Of a stretch of DNA of 64,000 nt, positions 1 through 54,533 are shown in pieces (position 1 is the first letter of the stretch; each line of letters opens with the position of its first letter). The notes under the pieces were generated by a model. The model was not told where the DNA came from and ran no database searches. It saw nothing but the letters and a program-made list of their open reading frames with translations. The DNA is from Acidobacteriota bacterium (GTDB lineage: Bacteria > Acidobacteriota > Blastocatellia > UBA7656). Location: contig JBBPIG010000004.1 in assembly GCA_038040445.1 (NCBI GenBank), forward strand, positions 1-64,000, written 5' to 3'. Made by a program: the position numbers and the translations under genes.

Positions 1-29
1 CGATCGCAACGGGAGTGGAACGCGGTGCC

Positions 30-134
30 GCCTAACAAAGGGATGGAGCTGACAGGCAAAAGCGACACGCCCTTTGCAAAGAGAAGAGCAAAGGGCGTGT
101 CGCTTTTGCCTGCAGCTCATCCCAGGCGTTGGGC
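30..134 (+). other. attC recombination site (integron cassette), first copy
   Basis: Full attC architecture is visible. The R'' box GCCTAAC (30-36, fits RYYYAAC) pairs with the R' box GTTGGGC (128-134, fits GTTRRRY). L'' GGGATGGAGCTG (40-51) pairs with L' CAGCTCATCCC (113-123), leaving one G unpaired as the extrahelical base typical of attC. Between them lies a perfect 25-bp stem (53-77 with 88-112) around a 10-nt loop, which is the variable terminal structure. The expected cut is between G128 and T129. An open frame from the window edge ends in TAA at 33-35 inside R'', as is common for cassette genes, so the tail of an earlier cassette is probably present at 3-35. Confidence 0.82.
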
Positions 135-182
135 AGACGCGCGATCAGTTCCAAGTCTGAAACCCGGAAATGGAGGGAGACC

Positions 183-638
183 ATGTCTCAACTGCTTGCG
201 ACAGTGTTTGCATTAATGCTAATCGGTCTTAACAGTTGTAGCCGATCATCTTCTGCGGAGGATTCACATATGACTGCTGATTTGGAACGTCTCAATCAGA
301 TGTGGGAGCGAGCTTGGCTAGACAAGGATGTAGCGCTGGTCGAAAAACTGATGGCAGATGAGTATGTGTATATCGCCGCCAACGGCCAAATGCTGGATCG
401 CCAGGCCATCCTCAAGATCATTCGGTCGCCAAGCTATCACCTAGACAACGGCACACGCACCGAAGTGATAATCAAACCTGTCGGGGAGGATGCCGCCGTG
501 GTTGTGCATCGCTCGCAGGCGGAAGGCGGGTTCGAGGGGAAGTCCTTCAAAGATGACCATAGATGCACAATGCTATGTGTCCGGCGTGGCGGTGAGTGGC
601 GAGTGATATTAGAGCAATGTTCGCCAAACAATCCATGA
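183..638 (+). CDS. Cassette-borne NTF2/SnoaL-like lipoprotein (DUF4440 type)
   Basis: A 151-residue protein. The start is ATG 183, directly after GGAGGGAGACC, rather than the upstream TTG at 129, which lies inside the attC site. Residues 1-19 form a lipoprotein signal with lipobox LNSC (Cys19), so the mature protein is probably membrane-anchored outside the cytoplasm. The rest (about 30-150) resembles small NTF2-like domains: a helix with NQMWERAWLDKD, then LMADEYVYI, and a C-terminal strand ending GEWRVILEQ. Members of this superfamily include enzymes and binding proteins, and no catalytic residues identify a substrate here. The gene is the only one between two attC sites, so it is a mobile cassette cargo; its function is unknown. 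Confidence 0.8.
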   Translation: MSQLLATVFALMLIGLNSCSRSSSAEDSHMTADLERLNQMWERAWLDKDVALVEKLMADEYVYIAANGQMLDRQAILKIIRSPSYHLDNGTRTEVIIKPVGEDAAVVVHRSQAEGGFEGKSFKDDHRCTMLCVRRGGEWRVILEQCSPNNP

Positions 639-691
639 GGCACTTGCGGGATCAGATTCAGGGCGGCGGGCGCTGCCCAACAACTTAAGAA

Positions 692-782
692 TGACAACAC
701 GGCGTTCGACGCGAGCGCGCAAACGCACGCTTCATTGTGACTCGGTGTGCCGCTCGCGCGCCGCGTCAACTTTCCGTTAGCA
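692..782 (+). other. attC-like site closing the cassette, second copy
   Basis: A more degenerate attC. R'' TGACAAC (692-698) faces R' GTTAGCA (776-782), conserving the essential AAC/GTT. Five-nucleotide spacers (699-703 and 771-775) separate these from L'' GTTCGACGCG (704-713) and L' CGCGTCAAC (762-770), which pair perfectly except for an extrahelical C at 707, the same position as in well-known attC sites. An imperfect GC-rich stem fills the middle. With the site at 30-134 it bounds a cassette of about 129-776. GTTAGCA departs from GTTRRRY at two positions, so confidence is lower than for the first copy. The stretch 783-908 has no gene; it leads to the stop of the convergent dehydrogenase gene. 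Confidence 0.65.
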
Positions 783-908
783 CGCCGCCGAACTTGCGAT
801 AAGCATTCTTGAGAGACGGAGTAAGCGCTTCCTTTAAGGCACAAAGTCCGCTGCCCAATACCTCGCAGACAAAGAACCTCGTGCGAATGAAAAAGTTCCC
901 GTGCGCAT

Positions 909-3900
909 TTACGCCGAGCCGAAAGCGTTCTTCACCAACTGCTGCTGCTCCATCTGATGAATAGTATGCGAGCCAGTAGCGGGGCTAGCGCTCGGCGGCC
1001 GGCCGACATAGAGCAGATTTCGCTCAGGCCCGACAAGTTTCAGAAGGCGCGGCTCCATGAATGACCATCCGCCCATGTTCTCAGGCTCTTCCTGGACCCA
1101 TCGAACGTCACTCCCGTTTGGGAAGCGATTGAGTTGCTCAACCAGAAGGTTCCTCGGAAAGGGATAGAATTGTTCCACACGCACGATAGCGCTGCTCGAG
1201 TCATCACGCTTCTTTCGCTCGGCGACCAAGTCGTAGTGGACCTTGCCGCTGCACAGCAAAACTCGAGTCACCTTAGCTGAGACGGCCGAGTCATCGCCGA
1301 TCACCGGCAGGAATCCGCCGCTAGTGAACTGCTCAATTGCGGACGCAGCTTCGGGATGCCTCAGCAGGCTCTTCGGTGTTATCACCACCAGCGGCTTGAT
1401 TACCTTCTGTAGTCCCTGCCGCCTCAGCACGTGAAAGTACTGTGCGGCAGTCGACGGGTTCACAACCTGCATATTCCCTTCCGCGCAAAGCTGAAGGAAG
1501 CGCTCGATCCTCGCGCTTGAATGCTCCGGACCCTGGCCTTCGTAGCCGTGCGGCAACAACAGCCCGAGGCGAGTCCGCTGGTTCCACTTCTCTTCCCCGG
1601 GTGCGATGAACTGGTCCACGATCACTTGAGCCGCGTTGATGAAGTCGCCGAATTGCGCCTCCCACAGCACCAGCGCGGAGGGCGCCGCGATGCTGTAGCC
1701 GTACTCGAAGCCGAGCGCCCCCGCTTCAGACAAAGGGCTGTCGTAGATCTCGTACTTCGCGCCCTTCTCCGATAGCTGAGCGAGCGGCGCCCATTCCTCG
1801 CCCGTCTGCGTGTCCGTGAACGCCGCGTGACGATGGCTGAACGTACCACGAACGGTATCCTGACCTGTGAGCCGCACCCGCGTGCCTTCGATCAGCACCG
1901 AGCCGAACGCGAGCGCTTCTGCCATGCCCCAATCGACCGGCGTCGCGCCTTCAACCATCTTGGCTCGCCGTGCAAGCAAGCCGACGATCTTGGGATTCAG
2001 ATTGAACCCGCGAGGCACCGTAGTGATTGCATGCGCGATCGTGCGAAGCGTCTGTTGATCGACGCCGGTCGCGATCACTTCAACGGTTTCAGGTTCGGGC
2101 TCGTGAGCGGGCAGCGCGATTTGAGTGTCTTGTTTCTCGACGATCGCTTTCGCTCCAAGCTGTGCGTTCTCGTAGCGCCGGGTTCGCTCATCCATAAGCG
2201 TTGCGATTAAGTCTTCGGTCATCACGCCCTCAGCGATCAGCTTCTTTGCGTACAGCGCCCGAACGCCGGGGTGCTCGCGGATTCGCTGATACATCACCGG
2301 CTGAGTGTAAGTCGGCTCGTCGCCTTCGTTGTGACCCAGCCGCCGAAACCCGATCACGTCGATCACCACGTCCTTCTGATACTTCTGCCGATAGTCGAGC
2401 GCGATCTGAAGCACGTTGTAGGCGCCTTCGACATCGTCGCTGTTCACGTGAAAGACCGGCGCCTGGATCATCTTCGCGATGTCGGTGCTGTAAGTCGACG
2501 AACGTCCTTCTTCGGGCGGCGTGGTGAAGCCGAGCTGGTTGTTTGTGACGATGTGAATCGTCCCGCCGGTTTTGTAGCCGAGCAACTGCGACAGGTTGAG
2601 CGTCTCAGCCACGATGCCTTCGCCCGCAAACGCCGCGTCGCCGTGAAGCAGAACCGCCAGCGTGCTCGAGCGCTCGCCGTCGATGTCTTGCCGCGCGCGA
2701 ACAATTCCCTCGACGACCGGATTGACGAATTCGAGGTGGCTGGGGTTCGGTACTACCGCGAGCGCGACCTCGCGGCCGCTTGCAGTCTCACGCACGCCGC
2801 TCGCGCCCTGATGATACTTAACGTCGCCCTGGTCGTGTGGAAAGTTTGGATGAATCGATCCTTCAAAGCTTGTAAAGATCCGCTCGCACATTTTGCCGAT
2901 TACATTCGCGATCACGTTCAACCTGCCGCGGTGGGCCATGCCGATCGTTATGTCGTCGATGCGGCGCACGGCGGCGCTCTCGATCAATTGATCGAGCACG
3001 GCGATGACAGTTTCGTTGCCCTCGATTGAGAATCGCTTTTGTCCGAGATACTTCGTCCCGAGGAATTTTTCAAACAACTCGGCTGAGATGAGCTTCCACA
3101 AAATCTGCTTCTTCACTTCAACGGGAACTGGCGGCCGTGCCGTTTCAACCCGCGCGCGAATCCACTCCTTCTCCTCGGGAGTCTGGATGTTGCGATACTC
3201 GATGCCGACCTTCCCGCAGTAGTACTCGTGCAGACGGTCGACGATCTCCCGCAGCGCCGCCGTCTCCGCTTCCCCGACGCCGCCGATGATGAACTGGCGG
3301 TCGAGGTCCCAGATCGTCAGACCGTAGGTCTCGATGTCGAGCTCGGGGTGATACTGGACAGTTTTGCAGCCAAGCGGGTCGAGGTCCGCGATCAAGTGTC
3401 CGCGAACTCGATATGCGTTGATCAGCTCGAAGACGCGCGCCTGCTTGCGGACAACATCGATGTGGCGCTCTTCACCCAGTATCGCCGGGTTGACGTCCAT
3501 CGCCCATCGATACGGCCGATAGCGGATGCCGAGGTCGGCGAAGATATCGTCATAAAATTCGTGTTGACCGCGAAGCAACTCGTCGATCAGCGCCAGGAAT
3601 CCGCCCGACTCGGCGCCCTGGACGATGCGATGATCGTAGGTGCTGCTTATGGTCATCGCCTTGCCGATGCCAATGCGCGAGAGACCTTCGGGCGACATCG
3701 CCTGGTACTCGGGCGGATAAGCGATCGCGCCGGTTGCGACGATCACCCCTTGCCCGGACATCAATCGCGGATTCGACGCCGTCGTGCCGATCGTGCCCGG
3801 ATTGGTCAAACTAATGGTCGTTCCTTGAAAGTCTGAGACCTGAAGCTTGCCGGCGCGCGCGCGGCGGATGACATCGTCGTAAGCATCGAGCAGTTGTGAA

Positions 3901-4715
3901 AAAGTCAGCGTGTCAGCTTCCTTGATGTTCGGAACAAGCAGCGTGCGAGTTCCATCCTTTCGAGCGACGTCGACCGCCACGCCAAAGTTCACTTGCCGGT
4001 GACGCACGCGAAACGCTTTTCCATCCACCTCCTCAAATGAATCGTTGAGCTGGGGGAAACTCTCGAGCGCTTTCAGAATCGCACGCACGACCACGTGGGT
4101 GTACGAGACCTTGCGGCCCGAGGTGGCGAGGTGTTTAGTGATGAGCCGGCGATTGTCATCCAACAGCTTGATTGCGATTTGCCGCTGCGAAGTAGCGGTC
4201 GGGACCGGTAGACTCGCTTCCATGTTCTCGGCTAGCCGAAGCGCGGGACCTCGGAGGGGTAAACGCTCGACCTGTTCCGATTGAGCAACCGCGGGACGGG
4301 GAGCGCTCGGCTGAGGGGCTGCCGCCTGCGCCTCAGCTTTGATGGAGACAGCTTGAGTCGAAGCAGAACCGCTCGCCGGCGGTGTTTGCGATGAAGGCGC
4401 GGTTTGGGCGGGGCTCGACGCCCAATCGTAAGTCGTATGCAGCCCGCCCCGCGGTTGTGCCGGCTCGGTCGATCGCCCTGCATTGTCCGAAGCCCTCGCT
4501 GGTTCGCTCGAGCCCGGCGTTTTGCCGGTCGCGGCTCCAGTTGTGTCGTTGCCAACGAGCAACTCGCGAAAGTATGCGCTCCATTCCTGGTCAACCTCGG
4601 CCGGGTTGCGCTCATACTGGCGCAGAAGCTCGCTGACGTAATCAGCGTTGACGCCGAACTCGTCGGCGATTAATTGATCGAGCTGCGCCTCGGTCATTTG
4701 TTTGATTGTGGCCAT
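909..4715 (-). CDS. kgd: Multifunctional 2-oxoglutarate dehydrogenase, fused E2-E1 (Kgd type)
   Basis: A 1268-residue protein that oxidatively decarboxylates 2-oxoglutarate in the TCA cycle. Residues 1-52 are the short E1 N-terminal segment (ELLRQYERNPAEVDQEW). Residues 55-148 are an Ala/Pro-rich linker. Residues 150-385 are a 2-oxoacid dehydrogenase E2 catalytic domain with DHRIVQG at 361-367. From about 390 on is the thiamine-diphosphate E1o part, with IGMAHRGRLN (591-600) and GDAAFAGEG (692-700). No lipoyl domain is present, as in mycobacterial Kgd (about 1230 residues), so a separate lipoylated E2 and E3 must exist elsewhere. The start is ATG 4715 after GAGGAAAACG. It stands alone, facing the cassette array at its 3' end and the repeat cluster at its 5' side. 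Confidence 0.95.
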   Translation of the reverse strand: MATIKQMTEAQLDQLIADEFGVNADYVSELLRQYERNPAEVDQEWSAYFRELLVGNDTTGAATGKTPGSSEPARASDNAGRSTEPAQPRGGLHTTYDWASSPAQTAPSSQTPPASGSASTQAVSIKAEAQAAAPQPSAPRPAVAQSEQVERLPLRGPALRLAENMEASLPVPTATSQRQIAIKLLDDNRRLITKHLATSGRKVSYTHVVVRAILKALESFPQLNDSFEEVDGKAFRVRHRQVNFGVAVDVARKDGTRTLLVPNIKEADTLTFSQLLDAYDDVIRRARAGKLQVSDFQGTTISLTNPGTIGTTASNPRLMSGQGVIVATGAIAYPPEYQAMSPEGLSRIGIGKAMTISSTYDHRIVQGAESGGFLALIDELLRGQHEFYDDIFADLGIRYRPYRWAMDVNPAILGEERHIDVVRKQARVFELINAYRVRGHLIADLDPLGCKTVQYHPELDIETYGLTIWDLDRQFIIGGVGEAETAALREIVDRLHEYYCGKVGIEYRNIQTPEEKEWIRARVETARPPVPVEVKKQILWKLISAELFEKFLGTKYLGQKRFSIEGNETVIAVLDQLIESAAVRRIDDITIGMAHRGRLNVIANVIGKMCERIFTSFEGSIHPNFPHDQGDVKYHQGASGVRETASGREVALAVVPNPSHLEFVNPVVEGIVRARQDIDGERSSTLAVLLHGDAAFAGEGIVAETLNLSQLLGYKTGGTIHIVTNNQLGFTTPPEEGRSSTYSTDIAKMIQAPVFHVNSDDVEGAYNVLQIALDYRQKYQKDVVIDVIGFRRLGHNEGDEPTYTQPVMYQRIREHPGVRALYAKKLIAEGVMTEDLIATLMDERTRRYENAQLGAKAIVEKQDTQIALPAHEPEPETVEVIATGVDQQTLRTIAHAITTVPRGFNLNPKIVGLLARRAKMVEGATPVDWGMAEALAFGSVLIEGTRVRLTGQDTVRGTFSHRHAAFTDTQTGEEWAPLAQLSEKGAKYEIYDSPLSEAGALGFEYGYSIAAPSALVLWEAQFGDFINAAQVIVDQFIAPGEEKWNQRTRLGLLLPHGYEGQGPEHSSARIERFLQLCAEGNMQVVNPSTAAQYFHVLRRQGLQKVIKPLVVITPKSLLRHPEAASAIEQFTSGGFLPVIGDDSAVSAKVTRVLLCSGKVHYDLVAERKKRDDSSSAIVRVEQFYPFPRNLLVEQLNRFPNGSDVRWVQEEPENMGGWSFMEPRLLKLVGPERNLLYVGRPPSASPATGSHTIHQMEQQQLVKNAFGSA

Positions 4716-4786
4716 CGTTTTCCTCGTCGATAGAATTTAGAGTCTAATCCGCGCGGCAGCGGTTAACAACTGTGGGAGCTTGGCGA

Positions 4787-5259
4787 CAATCCCAACGGGA
4801 TTGCGGCTCAAAGCCCAAGGTTGCCGGACTCGGCTACCGGACGGCGTGCATGCCGGGGGCAATCCCAACGGGATTGCGACTCAGAGCCCAAGGTTGCCGT
4901 ACTCGGCTACCTTGGGGACCGCGCGCACACAGGGCGACAATCCCAACGGGATTGCGACTCAGAGCCCAAGGTTGCCGTACTCGGCTACCTTGGGGACCGT
5001 GCGCACACAGGGCGACAATCCCAACGGGATTGCGGCTCAGAGCCCAAGGTTGCTTTACTCGGCTACCTTGGGGAGGGCGTGCGAAAACTATCAAGCCAAT
5101 TGTGGTTGCGTCGCCGACCGCCGTTTGGATCGTTCAAAACATGTTTATCTTACCGATGCGGGACACAACCCCGTTGGGGTTGCGACTGAATCACCGCTGC
5201 CCCCCAAGGTAGCCGAGTACGGCAACCTTGGGCTCTGCGCTGCAATCCCTTTGGGATTG
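4787..5259. repeat. Cluster of REP-like two-hairpin repeats
   Basis: This is the gene-free gap between the dehydrogenase and the S41 protease. Four direct copies start at 4787, 4860, 4938 and 5016; the last three are 78-bp tandem units. An inverted copy lies at 5213-5259. Each unit has a short palindrome CAATCCC-AAC-GGGATTG followed by a second hairpin CCCAAGGT-T-GCCG-TACT-CGGC-T-ACCTTGGG. The first copy is truncated (ends near 4838). A variant palindrome CAACCCCGTTGGGGTTG sits at 5166-5182. The pattern resembles REP/BIME elements that are spread through genomes and act on mRNA ends. The open frames across this region are translations of the repeat. Nothing else was recognised between 4716 and 5468. 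Confidence 0.9.
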
Positions 5260-14801: not shown

Positions 14802-16355
14802 TCATTTGCTCTTCGATCCGGCGGCGGCAGCTTTCGCCTCGGCGTTTTTCCGGCGGTGCGCGTCGAACCAATCGAAGACATCCTTGAAGGTCGGAGCCAC
14901 GACGTTGCCGTGGTCGCCGCCGGGAACTTCGACGTACTTGATCTCCATCCCGAGCTTTTTGCCCATCGCGACCATCACCCGAGAGCGCTCAACCGGAACC
15001 GTCGCGTCATTGTCGCCGTGAACCACGATCTCAGGAATGTGAGCGATCTTGGACATCCCCGCTGGAATATTGGATCCACCGGACACGGGAGCGATCGCCG
15101 CGAACACATCAGGATGGCTCATAGCGACCGACCATGTGCCGAAGCCGCCCATAGAGTGTCCGGTCAAGTAGACGCGATCCGCATCGATGTTGTAATCGCG
15201 TCTCACTTCGGCGATCACATCCATTACGTCCTTCTCGGCGTCGCCCATGTACATCGAAGCCGGCTTGCGGCCCTTCGGACAGGCGACAATGTATCCGCGC
15301 TTCTCAGCTTCAAGCTTGAACGCGCCTTGCCCGTAAGCTTGAAAATAACTGTTCTCATCTCCGCCCATACCGTGAAGCGCGATCACCAGTGGAAACGGTT
15401 TCGATTTGTCGTAAGCGGACGGCACGAACACTTGATAAGGTTGAAGCGCGTTGTCCACTTTCGAGCGGTAGGCCTTCTTGAATTCTCCTCGACGCGCAGC
15501 GAACGGATCGTTGCCCGCGCCGAGAGTGTCGAGCAACGAGTTTGCTTCCTTGAGCGAGTCGCGGAAATCTATCCGCTCGAAGTTGATCTCGCCGGCTCGG
15601 GCGAGCTCGAAAAGCGATATGCGATACTCGGCCGAAGGCACCGCGGCAACGAGGCCGACTTGACGCTTGGCCTTGAGCGCCGTTTCTATCTTTGCCGCGC
15701 GGGCCTTCGCTTCAGCAAACTCGGAGGCAAGCCCTCGTTCGATGTGAATCGTCGCGTACTTGACTATAGGCTCGTCGCCCAATTGAATTCGCACAGCTAT
15801 TCGGTAGTTCCCAGCTCCGATGTCGGGCACGACGACTTCCGCGGATAGAGGGTGCGACATAAAGTCAGGATCGAGCGAGTCAATAGTCTTGAGATCCTTT
15901 ACCGTCTCGTCGCCCTTCATCTTGAGCAGCGAAACGTTGGCGGTGAGTTTGCCGCTCGGCTTTTCGTCGAGCGCGTACATCTGAGTGATTCGAACCGCGA
16001 CCTTTTCGCCAGGATCGAGCATCGCACGGTCGAGCTTGACGGTGAGCGCCGAGGTAAGCGCGCGCGCCGGCGTCCATTCCGTTCCACGCATCAACGCCAA
16101 CGCGTGATAGAGGTGTTTGAGCGCATCGCCGTACTTGCCTTCCGCGTTCGCCGCCCGAGCCAACTCGCCGAGGCGGTCGACTTCGGCGCGCGCCTCCGGG
16201 GTCAGCTTAGCCATGACGGCCGGCGTGTTCTTCATCGTTCCATAGCCCACCGAAACGCGTAGCACCTGGCCGGAGTCTTGCGCGAACACGATCGCGCAGC
16301 AGGCGATCACAATTGCCGTCTGAAAAATAAATCGTCGAGTCGCTTTCGAAATCAT
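14802..16355 (-). CDS. Secreted alpha/beta-hydrolase esterase (PHB-depolymerase/dienelactone-hydrolase-like)
   Basis: A 517-residue protein. The start is ATG 16355 behind AAGGAGAACCCCAACG; the longer frame begins in non-coding sequence. A signal peptide runs to about residue 26 (CCAIVFAQ). Residues 27-290 form an N-terminal region with a helical pair near AELARAANAEGKYGDALKH and beta-rich sequence, unassigned. From about 300 is an alpha/beta hydrolase: VIALHGMGGDENS (oxyanion), GHSMGGFGTW (nucleophile Ser), HGDNDATVP (Asp region) and GGDHGN (His). The layout matches esterases that cleave polyesters or acylated polysaccharides, but the substrate cannot be read from sequence. The tail is Ala/Lys-rich (AEAKAAAAGSKSK). 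Confidence 0.85.
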   Translation of the reverse strand: MISKATRRFIFQTAIVIACCAIVFAQDSGQVLRVSVGYGTMKNTPAVMAKLTPEARAEVDRLGELARAANAEGKYGDALKHLYHALALMRGTEWTPARALTSALTVKLDRAMLDPGEKVAVRITQMYALDEKPSGKLTANVSLLKMKGDETVKDLKTIDSLDPDFMSHPLSAEVVVPDIGAGNYRIAVRIQLGDEPIVKYATIHIERGLASEFAEAKARAAKIETALKAKRQVGLVAAVPSAEYRISLFELARAGEINFERIDFRDSLKEANSLLDTLGAGNDPFAARRGEFKKAYRSKVDNALQPYQVFVPSAYDKSKPFPLVIALHGMGGDENSYFQAYGQGAFKLEAEKRGYIVACPKGRKPASMYMGDAEKDVMDVIAEVRRDYNIDADRVYLTGHSMGGFGTWSVAMSHPDVFAAIAPVSGGSNIPAGMSKIAHIPEIVVHGDNDATVPVERSRVMVAMGKKLGMEIKYVEVPGGDHGNVVAPTFKDVFDWFDAHRRKNAEAKAAAAGSKSK

Positions 16356-27592: not shown

Positions 27593-30500
27593 TCAATCGC
27601 TCGCCGCCTGCAGCTGGCGCGCGAAGGCGGTGGGTAGCTTGATGGTAAAGTGCGCGCCTTCCCCTGGGCGGCTCTCAACGAAGATGCGGCCGTTGTGCTC
27701 CTGGATAATTCCATAAGACAACGCGAGGCCGAGACCCGTGCCTTGACCAACTCCTTTCGTCGTGAAGAACGGATCATAGATCCGCGCGATATTCTCAGGC
27801 GCGATGCCCTCACCGGTGTCCCTAAAGTCGATAACCAGCGAACTGTCGGCGGCGCGCGTGTGTATCGTCAGCCGCCCGCCGTTGGGCATCGCGTCGCGCG
27901 CGTTTAGTATCAGGTTCATGAACACCTGTTGAAGCTTCGACGCGCTGCCGTATGCCTGATGAAGGTGCTCGCCGTAGTTGCGCGTAATTTGGAATCTCGC
28001 GTTCCGTAGCTGCGGCTCCAGCAACTGAATCGTGTCATCGAGAACGCGATTGATATCGACTTCGCGGAATTCAGCGTCGCCTGTGCGGGAAAAGTTCAGC
28101 AGGTTATTAACTATCCCCGATGCCCGAAGTGTCTGAGCATGAATCTTCTCGAGGAGCTTGCGCTTGGGATCGTTCTCCTGGACCTGTTGCAGCAGCATCT
28201 GCGCATAAGACGAAATCCCCGCGAGGGGGGTGTTGACTTCATGCGCGACTCCCGCTGCCAGCAATCCGATCGACGAGAGCTTCTCGCGCTCGAGCAACTG
28301 CTGTTCGAGTTGCGCGCGCTCGGTCACGTTTTCGATCACCACAAGAGTGCCGGTCACCACGCCGCGAGCGGCTTCAAACGGCGCAAGCGAGATATTGAGC
28401 GTCAGCGGGCGGCCGTCCTCGGTCGAAGCATTGTATTTGTAGAGATGCCTGGTGTCGCGAATCGCCCAACCTTCCTGACCGATCACATTCCGGATGGTCT
28501 CAATCAAGTCGCGGTCGAAAATATCGTCAATGCTGCGGCGCAACGCCTGCTCGCGCGCGACTCCCAAAATCTCTTCAAGAGAGCTGTTCCAGGTCGTAAT
28601 CCGGCCGTCGAAATCAACAACGAGTATGCCGACATTGACACTTTCGATGATGTTCTCGGAGAACTCCTTGAGCCGGGCAAGCTCTTCAGCCTTCTCCATC
28701 TCGGACCGGTACAGCAGACTATTGTCGATCGCGACTGCGACGTAGCCCGATACCGCTCTCAACAAATCCGTATCTTCGCTGGTGAGCATCGCGCCGGTTG
28801 TCGTGCGCCCGATCCCAATGATGGCCACCATCCGGTCTCTCACCACACACGGCACATAGTAGTGAAGCTGTTCGTATCCCCGGGCCAATGACTCGACTTC
28901 ATCATTGTCTAAGAAGGAGTCTTGTTCCCTGCGCAGATCGTGGGCCACGATGAAGCCCCGTCCCGCTGAGCGGATTCGAATCGTCTGCTTTACGTCCTCC
29001 GGCAGACTCACATCGCCATCGATGCCAGGCCCATGCGCAAGTCGAAACCCTGAAGCCGTGCCCGCATCTTCGATGAAGATTGCGACCTTGCCGACCGAAA
29101 GCATGTCCGATAACCGCCGGACAAGCGAGTCGAGCAATTGCGGAAGCGCCGTCGTTTGCGAGAGCGTTCTCCCAAAATCCTGAAGCCCGGTTCGCATCGT
29201 GTATCTCTCGCCGTAGAACCAGCGGTCGGCCCATACCTGAAGCCTGTTCTTGATCGGCGCGAACAGCATCGCCACGATGAGCATTCCCGCGACGACCACC
29301 ACGCGCGTCCGCCAGGAGTTCAGGTCTGCGGTCTTCCAGATGAATCTCACAAGATCGCCCACGCCGAGCAGCACCGCCATGTAGATCGCGGCCACCGCGA
29401 GGCTCGCCATAGCATGCACGAAGCTCCGTCGCATTATCACGTCGACGTCCATCAGACGGTAGCGGATTATCGAGTAGCCAAACGAGAATGGGATCAGGAT
29501 CAGCGGCCCGTAAGCGACCGTCTCCATCACCGGAGTGATCTCGAGGTTCGAGACGTAAGGAACCAGATACAACAATGCGAACGGCAGCCCTGACAGCCCG
29601 AGTCCCCAAATGATCCACTTGAGCTGCTGGCGAAGCAGCGGCTTCTCAGCTCGAAGGAATGTTCGCAGAAGAAGCATGCTTCCGATGATGAAGAAGACTG
29701 CGCCGTGAGCCAGCTCCACCTTTCCAAGCGTATTGCCCCAGTCAACGAGCGATGCCTTGCCGAAGAGAGACGCGTCCGCTCCTAGCTTAAAGTCAGGTTT
29801 GTAGTGCCAGAAAGCTTGAATAGTAATGAGGGCGAGCGCGGGAACGTATAGCGCTGCGATTACCGGCCGCAGCCGTACTGTCAATCCACGTCCCGATGGA
29901 AAGTTCGCGCAGAAGTGCAGGAATAGAGGCGCCAGCAGGGCCCATGCCGCGCCATCAAGAAAGCTCGCCAGCTTATCGAGTTTTGTGAACTCGAAGGTGG
30001 AGCTGTAGAAATACCCTACGAATGAAAGCAGCGACCACGCGTAGAAGTGGTAGGTCAGCGCGGCACGCCGCTGCTTGAAAAGCACAAATAACCCGATCGC
30101 TAGATAAACGAATCCGATAAACGCCAGATAGAGCCCGCGCCCGAGATGCTGGTCGCGACCGACGACCTTGAAGTCCACATCGTAAATCGGATGCTTAATT
30201 CCGTAGAGGTCCTTGAGAACCGCATCTTGATGCACAATCGCATAGCGCGCATTGTTCCCCACACCCTGGTTCTCAAGATACCGAGAGAGCGTTTCCGCCC
30301 GGGCGACTACCTCATAGTCAAGATTGCGAGAGTCCGGTTTGCTTCGCGCAGCGTCATCGCCAATATAGAAGAACGCTCTGACGTAGTCACCTTTCCTTAC
30401 GGCTGAGGCGAGAGGTGAATCCGCGGTGACCGACTTGGCTTGAACACCGTCGGAGGTATCGACCCATTCAATTCCATCATCGGCTACGGGTGGCAGGCTC

Positions 30501-53000: not shown

Positions 53001-54443
53001 ATGCGAAAAACGACATGCGCCTTCGTCTTGCTTCTCGCGACCTGGCCCCAAATGGCCGCGCCTCAATCAAGCGACACGATGTCTTCACGGTTAGTTGGCG
53101 AAGTACTCACGAGCGGTCAACAGTTGAAATACCTCTCGATGCTCAGCGATGAGATCGGCAGCCGCCTGACGGGTTCACCTGGCGCGCGCCGGGCCGAAGA
53201 AGCAATGGAAGCCGAAATGAAGCGGCTCGGACTGGCGAACGTACATCGCGAGGCGTTCACAGTTGCCGTGTCCTGGGAGCGCGGCTCGGCCGAGGCGCGG
53301 CTTGTTTCTCACTCGAACCGCCCGCTCACGGTCGCTTCGTACACGTGGACGCCGGGAACCGGCGGGGCTATCGAGGGGGAAGTCGTCGACGTCGGGGCCG
53401 GCCGTCCGGAAGACGTCGAGCGAGTGCGAGCGCGCTTGCGAGGGCGGGTCGCGTTTGCGATTCCAGCGGGCGAGACGCTCGACGCGGTCATCTACAACTT
53501 CTATCGCACGCCGCTGCTTGCGCGTGAATTAAGAGATGCAGGTGCTATCGCCTTGCTGATCGCTTCGGACAAGCAACACGCAATGCTGTACACAGCGCCC
53601 GTCGATTTCAACGCTCGCGTTGCGGCGCTCCCGACTCTCTCCCTTGCGCGCGAAGACGTGGGCTTGCTTCAGCGTTTGCTTGCTTCCGGTCAGAAGCCGC
53701 GCATTGCTCTGGACGTGCGCAACAAGCTTGGTCCGGCCTTTGAATCAACCAATGTCGTCGGCGAGATCATCGGGCGCGAGCGCCCGAACGAGATAGTTTT
53801 GCTCGGCGCGCACCTCGACTCAAACGATCTCGGCCCCGGCGCGCTCGACAACGCAGCGGGTTCGGCAGCGGTATTGGAAACGGCTCGCGCGATCAAATCG
53901 CTTGGGGTAGCTCCGCGGCGAACCATCCGCTTCGTTCTGTTCACCGGCGAGGAGGAAGGAATGCTCGGCTCGAACGCCTACGTGGCTCGGCATCGAGACG
54001 AGATGGATAGCACGGTCGCGGCTTTGATAATGGACGTCGGAGCGGGAAGGCCTGTTGGATGGTTTTCGATGGGACGAACAGATCTCGACGAGCAGATTCG
54101 AGAGTTGATGAAGCCGCTCGCGCCCTTCGGCGTGTCTACGATCGAGCACGGCGCCTTCGCCGCCACTGACAACGCCGCCTTCATGGCTGAGGGCGTCCCG
54201 AACCTCATCCTGCTTCAGGACGAGTCGGTATACTTCACCGTGCATCACACCGTCGCCGACACCTTTGATAAGGCAGACCCGCGTGACTTTGCGACGTGTG
54301 TTGCTACGGTAGCCGCCAGCACGTTCGGCATAGCCGATCGCGTGAATCGTTTCGGACGCCGGCTGACTTCCGAGGAGGTGAGGAAGATGGCGGCGGAATC
54401 AAAAGTGGATGAACAGTGGCGCGCGGCAGGAATATGGAAGTGA
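53001..54443 (+). CDS. Secreted M28-family zinc aminopeptidase
   Basis: A 480-residue protein, start ATG 53001 behind GGAGGATCACTCG. Signal peptide to about 19 (WPQMAAPQ). A PA-domain-like insert covers about 90-190 (GRPEDVERVRARLRGRVAFA). The M28 site is GAHLDSNDLGPGALDNAAG (His and Asp ligands), FTGEEEGMLGSNAY (Glu-Glu pair) and MDVGAGRP, with the last ligand in HTVADTFDK. It should clip amino acids from peptide N-termini outside the cell. The plus-strand transcript ends in a GAAGGCA repeat shared with the convergent propeller gene. Confidence 0.93.
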   Translation: MRKTTCAFVLLLATWPQMAAPQSSDTMSSRLVGEVLTSGQQLKYLSMLSDEIGSRLTGSPGARRAEEAMEAEMKRLGLANVHREAFTVAVSWERGSAEARLVSHSNRPLTVASYTWTPGTGGAIEGEVVDVGAGRPEDVERVRARLRGRVAFAIPAGETLDAVIYNFYRTPLLARELRDAGAIALLIASDKQHAMLYTAPVDFNARVAALPTLSLAREDVGLLQRLLASGQKPRIALDVRNKLGPAFESTNVVGEIIGRERPNEIVLLGAHLDSNDLGPGALDNAAGSAAVLETARAIKSLGVAPRRTIRFVLFTGEEEGMLGSNAYVARHRDEMDSTVAALIMDVGAGRPVGWFSMGRTDLDEQIRELMKPLAPFGVSTIEHGAFAATDNAAFMAEGVPNLILLQDESVYFTVHHTVADTFDKADPRDFATCVATVAASTFGIADRVNRFGRRLTSEEVRKMAAESKVDEQWRAAGIWK

Positions 54444-54445
54444 GG

Positions 54446-54533
54446 CGAGAAGGCAGAAGGCAGAAGGCAGAAGGCAGAGACGCGACATCTGCCTTCTGAC
54501 TTCTGCCTTCCGCCTTCTGCGTTCTGCCTTCTG
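54446..54533. repeat. GAAGGCA repeat hairpin between convergent genes
   Basis: Four GAAGGCA-type copies (about 54447-54480) face their complementary TGCCTTC/TTCTGCC copies (54489-54533) around a short spacer, giving a stem of some 30 bp with few mismatches. It lies between the two convergent stops (54443 and 54536), so it probably ends both transcripts. The 7-bp motif may belong to a dispersed repeat family. Confidence 0.75.

Follow-up and report, generated by a model that had tools for sequence, protein, structure and literature searches.

The terminal gene cassette at a contig edge of an Acidobacteriota genome, very probably the distal end of a chromosomal integron array

The DNA analysed here, referred to as the window, is a stretch of 64,000 nucleotides from an Acidobacteriota bacterium. 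Window position 1 is the left end of contig C4 in an assembly of 6.75 Mb and 72 contigs. At this edge lie the end of one gene cassette, a second cassette bounded by two attC sites, and the first gene beyond them:

1-29, plus strand: end of the cassette before site 1 (29 bases); C33:61605-61659, where a glyoxalase (VOC) cassette ends, is identical to window 1-55
30-134, plus strand: attC site 1, supported by its arms, folding, covariance model and register test
129-776, plus strand: gene cassette of 648 bp between two predicted G/TT cleavage points, placed from the sequence and the generally known cleavage position
183-638, plus strand: cassette gene, 151 aa, DUF4440/SnoaL-like, supported by a profile match and a decayed homologue in a related genus
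692-782, plus strand: attC site 2, terminal, supported by its arm register and the leave-out covariance model
909-4715, minus strand: 2-oxoglutarate dehydrogenase (E2-E1 fusion type), the first gene past the array, convergent with the cassette

Two other repeats occur in the window. A tandem repeat with a period of 78 and 3.8 copies (4782-5074) separates the dehydrogenase gene from the next gene, and 7-bp tandem repeats of AGGCAGA with inverted TCTGCCT are found at 54443-54533 and recur in part on contig C33.

An earlier note on this DNA described a 648-bp segment between two attC sites that holds one promoterless lipoprotein gene, and this description is borne out. The spacing from the R' box at 128 to the R' box at 776 is 648 bp. 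The cassette carries a single gene at 183-638 on the plus strand, which matches DUF4440 at 61.7 bits (cut-off 25.2), and the N-terminus of its product resembles a lipoprotein signal (..LIGLNSC). A scan of window 1-1000 returned 0 promoter-like matches, compared with 0.4 +/- 0.6 in shuffles. This is weak evidence for a promoterless gene because the scan covered only a sigma-70 consensus. Among the 39 genomes searched, matches to the cassette gene at E<=1e-15 come from its own genome and from G006 only. G006 belongs to another genus of the same family, and its homologue is decayed, lying in two adjacent pieces with 85% DNA identity over 458 bp. Four attC-like matches of 14.8-26.7 bits precede the homologue (G006:C187:13975-14399, L185) on its strand, and no covariance-model match was found after it. 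The homology begins at window 185 and not at the 5' border of the cassette, so this boundary is not common to both genomes.

The boxes of attC sites follow the consensus RYYYAAC and GTTRRRY. Site 1 has all the features of such a site: consensus R boxes, paired L boxes, extrahelical bases on the R'' side and a variable palindromic core. Its R'' box is GCCTAAC (30-36) with a spacer at 37-41, and its R' box is GTTGGGC (128-134) with a spacer at 122-127. The L'' arm (42-52) carries the unpaired bases G45 and A52 and faces the L' arm at 113-121. The stem consists of perfectly paired 25-bp arms (53-77 and 88-112). In site 2, the core GTT[C]GACGCG[A]GCGCG (704-719) pairs with CGCGCCGCGTCAAC (757-770) at 14 of 14 positions, and the unpaired bases C707 and A714 occupy the same two positions as in site 1. 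Site 2 thus has paired L boxes with extrahelical bases, but its R boxes are not intact. R' is GTTAGCA (776-782) and R'' is TGACAAC (692-698); both are off consensus, and the R'' box, which is the one in register, fits RYYYAAC poorly. The sequence GCCCAAC at 675-681 looks like a better R'' box and was rejected as out of register. The earlier note had credited both sites with R and L boxes, an extrahelical base and a palindromic core; site 1 is canonical in each respect and the core of site 2 is perfect, whereas its R'' box is degenerate.

The earlier note had also suggested comparing the folded bottom strands with shuffled sequence, and here the two sites part ways. The bottom strand of site 1 folds at -50.6 kcal/mol, compared with -16.0 +/- 2.3 kcal/mol for shuffled sequence (z -14.9), and 0 of 200 shuffles fold as well. 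Site 2, in contrast, folds no better than GC-rich sequence after shuffling (z 0.02), and 92 of 200 shuffles equal it, so by energy alone it does not pass the check that the earlier note set. The support for site 2 therefore rests on a register test. The register is an arm pattern of 3 pairs, 1 unpaired base, 6 pairs, 1 unpaired base and 5 pairs that also requires AAC and GTT where the spacing of the boxes places them; it was derived from arrays of the same genome and searched on both strands of the 64-kb window. The full 14/14 register occurs at exactly two places, which are the two reported sites, and in 0 of 20 dinucleotide shuffles.

Covariance models were built from alignments A2 and A6, leaving out the poor alignments A1, A4 and A5. 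The leave-out model is composed of eight attC sites from contig C28 and two from C33 and excludes the window sites. In a search of 132 kb, site 1 scores 43.6 bits (E 5.8e-9), and site 2 scores 18.3 bits (E 0.028) over model positions 5-53. With filters off over window 1-3000, site 2 is the best match at 13.5 bits, over positions 13-45 and thus the core only, and site 1 appears only as fragments of 2.8-3.9 bits, likely because of its long middle insert. The model match leaves out the R boxes of site 2 or reaches them just at its margin. Site 2 is absent from the matches listed in the whole-genome covariance-model search, and Rfam gave no attC match in the four stretches tested.

It is highly improbable that the two sites are chance palindromes or members of another repeat family. 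The ordinary energy of site 2 and the presence of a second attC-like repeat type in the genome would fit such a reading. The register test, the leave-out model, and the integrase and arrays of the same genome speak against it. The register argues against chance palindromes at both sites, and at site 1 the folding energy and the model also reject them. The second repeat type has a CCTAACAA...AACTTAAGA core, apparently lacks the usual extrahelical register and occurs on several contigs: at the end of C33 (L024 19938-20000), at C16:92008-92059 on the minus strand, at C61:11396-11431 and at C68:2294-2330. Two attC sites at 30-782, as first reported, are supported by the register found at exactly two places in 64 kb, the z of -14.9 for site 1, a leave-out model that finds both, the integrase and arrays of the genome, and the G006 homologue behind a run of attC. 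The window edge is thus very probably the distal end of a chromosomal integron array, where a 648-bp cassette with a well-formed attC is followed by a terminal, partly decayed attC.

Contig C28 encodes an integron integrase (IntI) of 340 aa at 3329-4351 on the plus strand. It scores 459 bits against a curated cut-off of 265 and has the integron-specific insert, as is expected of the integrase of a complete integron. None of the 14 control genomes has an IntI over this cut-off. The protein matches 2a3v, the solved structure of the Vibrio cholerae integron integrase, at E 6.3e-86 over 312 residues and is collinear with it over residues 27-338. The catalytic motifs R, K, HxxR, H and Y are retained. 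Integron integrases are mobile, and the closest named relative, with 69% identity, comes from a metagenome-assembled genome (MAG) of Terriglobia (Acidobacteriota). The C28 array has at least 19 attC matches of at least 28 bits, on the plus strand, at 5087-28544, and a pattern scan found one further attC with a long stem at 29938-30110. From its sequence, C28 is a complete-looking integron with a full-length IntI, a putative attI and an array of at least 19 attC that all point the same way. Rfam hits to parts of group II introns (L022 16301-16452 and 17066-17142) lie right behind the attC at 16179-16247 of this contig.

The C28 intI points toward attI and the cassettes, a layout termed facing. 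Of 80 named IntI loci collected through sequence similarity, those with an attC match at E<=0.1 number 37, and of these 29 are divergent and 7 facing. The seven facing loci belong to Acidobacteria (5), Krumholzibacteriia (1) and Elusimicrobiota (1). At one of the 37 loci (L035 209-1636 and 3118-4065), plus-strand attC lie upstream of a plus-strand intI, which is neither divergent nor facing. Among relatives and the genome itself, 16 of 58 genomes have an IntI over the cut-off. Nine of the 16 IntI loci of relatives have attC, seven divergent and two facing. An IntI tree of 74 rows was made from 57 of the 80 named loci, the 16 relatives and the IntI of this genome; the 23 named loci left out had given no attC match, and the Treponema denticola IntI is not among its rows. 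The 10 rows with the facing layout cluster on this tree, requiring 2 changes, a number as low as in 0 of 500 shuffles, and they come mostly from Acidobacteriota MAGs. The divergent pair of genome G013 falls within the facing group with weak support (91/13). Both the facing layout and Acidobacteria integrons are already in print, and no claim is made that the facing layout in Acidobacteria is unpublished.

A second platform lies on contig C33. At C33:52053-52427 (L024 9423-9797), intI lacks about 216 internal codons, and the deletion preserves the frame. The remaining 124-aa reading frame fuses the first ~43 residues of intI in frame to the last ~80. The remnant keeps HxxR, GH and Y, whereas the motifs with the first Arg and with Lys, at positions 154 and 180 of the C28 protein, are gone. 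At least six attC matches of 26 bits or more follow in its array, and the contig ends at 62630 inside another attC-like repeat.

The two platforms share their putative attI region. From the deletion junction to GTTAGGC/GTTCGGC, C28 and C33 are identical at 443 of 456 positions (97%), and then they diverge. Upstream of this 456-bp stretch they are 70% identical, and the 307 bp at C28:4217-4523 have no mismatch to C33. The end of identity at GTTRRRY would mark the attI border, as expected where the first cassettes differ, and the mismatch-free tract may reflect recent gene conversion. The pair thus offers a natural comparison that places a putative attI border. It is also a testable case of an integrase-deleted platform whose attI has stayed almost the same as on an intact platform.

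Across the whole genome, the covariance search lists 43 matches at E<=10; at least 37 of them, on 16 contigs, have E<=0.01. This count is a lower bound, with 150 of 4050 candidates scored. The earlier note found no integrase in the window and concluded that intI lies to the left or that the array is integrase-free. The window indeed has none, but the intact IntI on C28 and the deleted intI on C33 had been missed. The lack of an integrase is a limit of the window and not a trait of the genome, because the same genome has an intact IntI on C28. The genome around the window-edge cassette therefore has many cassettes and an integrase that looks intact.

Two origins are considered for the distal end seen in the window, the C33 array, of which it would be the tail, and a CALIN; the assembly fits both. 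With a probability put somewhat short of even, it is the tail of the C33 array, separated from it by a few unassembled cassettes, and its own platform is then the one with the deleted intI. The C33 array runs off the right end of its contig, and the window array enters from the left in the same orientation. Between window 1-133 and C33:61605-61737 the identity is 96%, and the stretch without any difference covers exactly the first 55 bases. This suggests that a de Bruijn assembly broke within a duplicated cassette, and it fits a join of C33 to C4. However, array pieces also lie at the ends of C37 and C25, which are thus further candidates for a join to C33. In addition, recR neighbours the C33 platform, and in nearly all of 39 genomes it lies on a different contig from the 2-oxoglutarate dehydrogenase gene; where the two share a contig, they are ~75-77 kb apart. 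Synteny therefore lends no support to a link between C33 and C4.

An even chance is given to the window being a CALIN, a small platform-less cluster of cassettes that arose by off-target insertion or rearrangement. Small groups of attC and single sites do lie inside long contigs away from both platforms, for example on C16, C13, C17 and C46. Against this, the contig end conceals how many attC precede site 1. Another scheme, considered unlikely, has the C28 IntI alone serving all the scattered arrays. The C33 platform would have lost its intI, gene conversion would hold its attI alike, and its array would be fed in trans, the window array included.

For the distal end of an integron array, a mechanism can be proposed by analogy with the integron family. 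The substrate of IntI is the folded bottom strand of attC with its extrahelical bases, and cleavage is at G/TTRRRY. The bottom strands of the attC sites described here would fold into such hairpins. IntI would synapse a hairpin with attI or another attC and exchange one strand at G/TTRRRY, and cassettes would be inserted, shuffled or lost as a result. The recombinase would be the intact C28 IntI, which would serve its own array in cis and the others in trans, because most of the coding sequence is missing from the C33 intI. Since the R'' box of site 2 is degenerate, the last cassette would be a poor excision substrate and is probably near-fixed, with decay as the presumed cause. The cassette gene is probably transcribed by read-through in the direction of the array.

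The earlier note regarded cassette arrays as rarely described in this kind of host, which the literature does not bear out. Passages of PMC8352920 present attC covariance models for Acidobacteria, among 11 taxa, and those of PMC9176274 repeat attC covariance models of Acidobacteria. Acidobacteriota are listed among integron-bearing phyla in sections of PMC8618304, which also treat possible origins of CALINs, and of PMC10500605, which name an "inverted integrase group". The sections considered of PMC3414803 hold nothing on Acidobacteria integrons.

The window cassette is an ordinary, well-supported example of a known system. The earlier interpretation was right in kind and too narrow, given the intact integrase and the second, broken platform found elsewhere in the genome. 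The C28/C33 pair is one modest point of interest in this otherwise ordinary member. In part of PMC3607928, the Treponema intI is described as transcribed toward attI; in contrast to that Treponema-type layout, the IntI group here is centred on Acidobacteriota MAGs, with the T. denticola IntI outside the tree rows. The two attC and the lack of intI within the window resemble a CALIN, defined in a passage of PMC8618304 as an attC cluster without integrase. Unlike in a CALIN, an intI could lie nearby, because only 29 bases separate site 1 from the left end of the contig. As in sedentary chromosomal integrons, there are a TIGR02249 IntI, an attI-like site, attC with R and L boxes and extrahelical bases, and mostly single-gene cassettes in one orientation. 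What sets this genome apart from them is that it has two platforms, one with an internally deleted intI, and attC scattered over many contigs.
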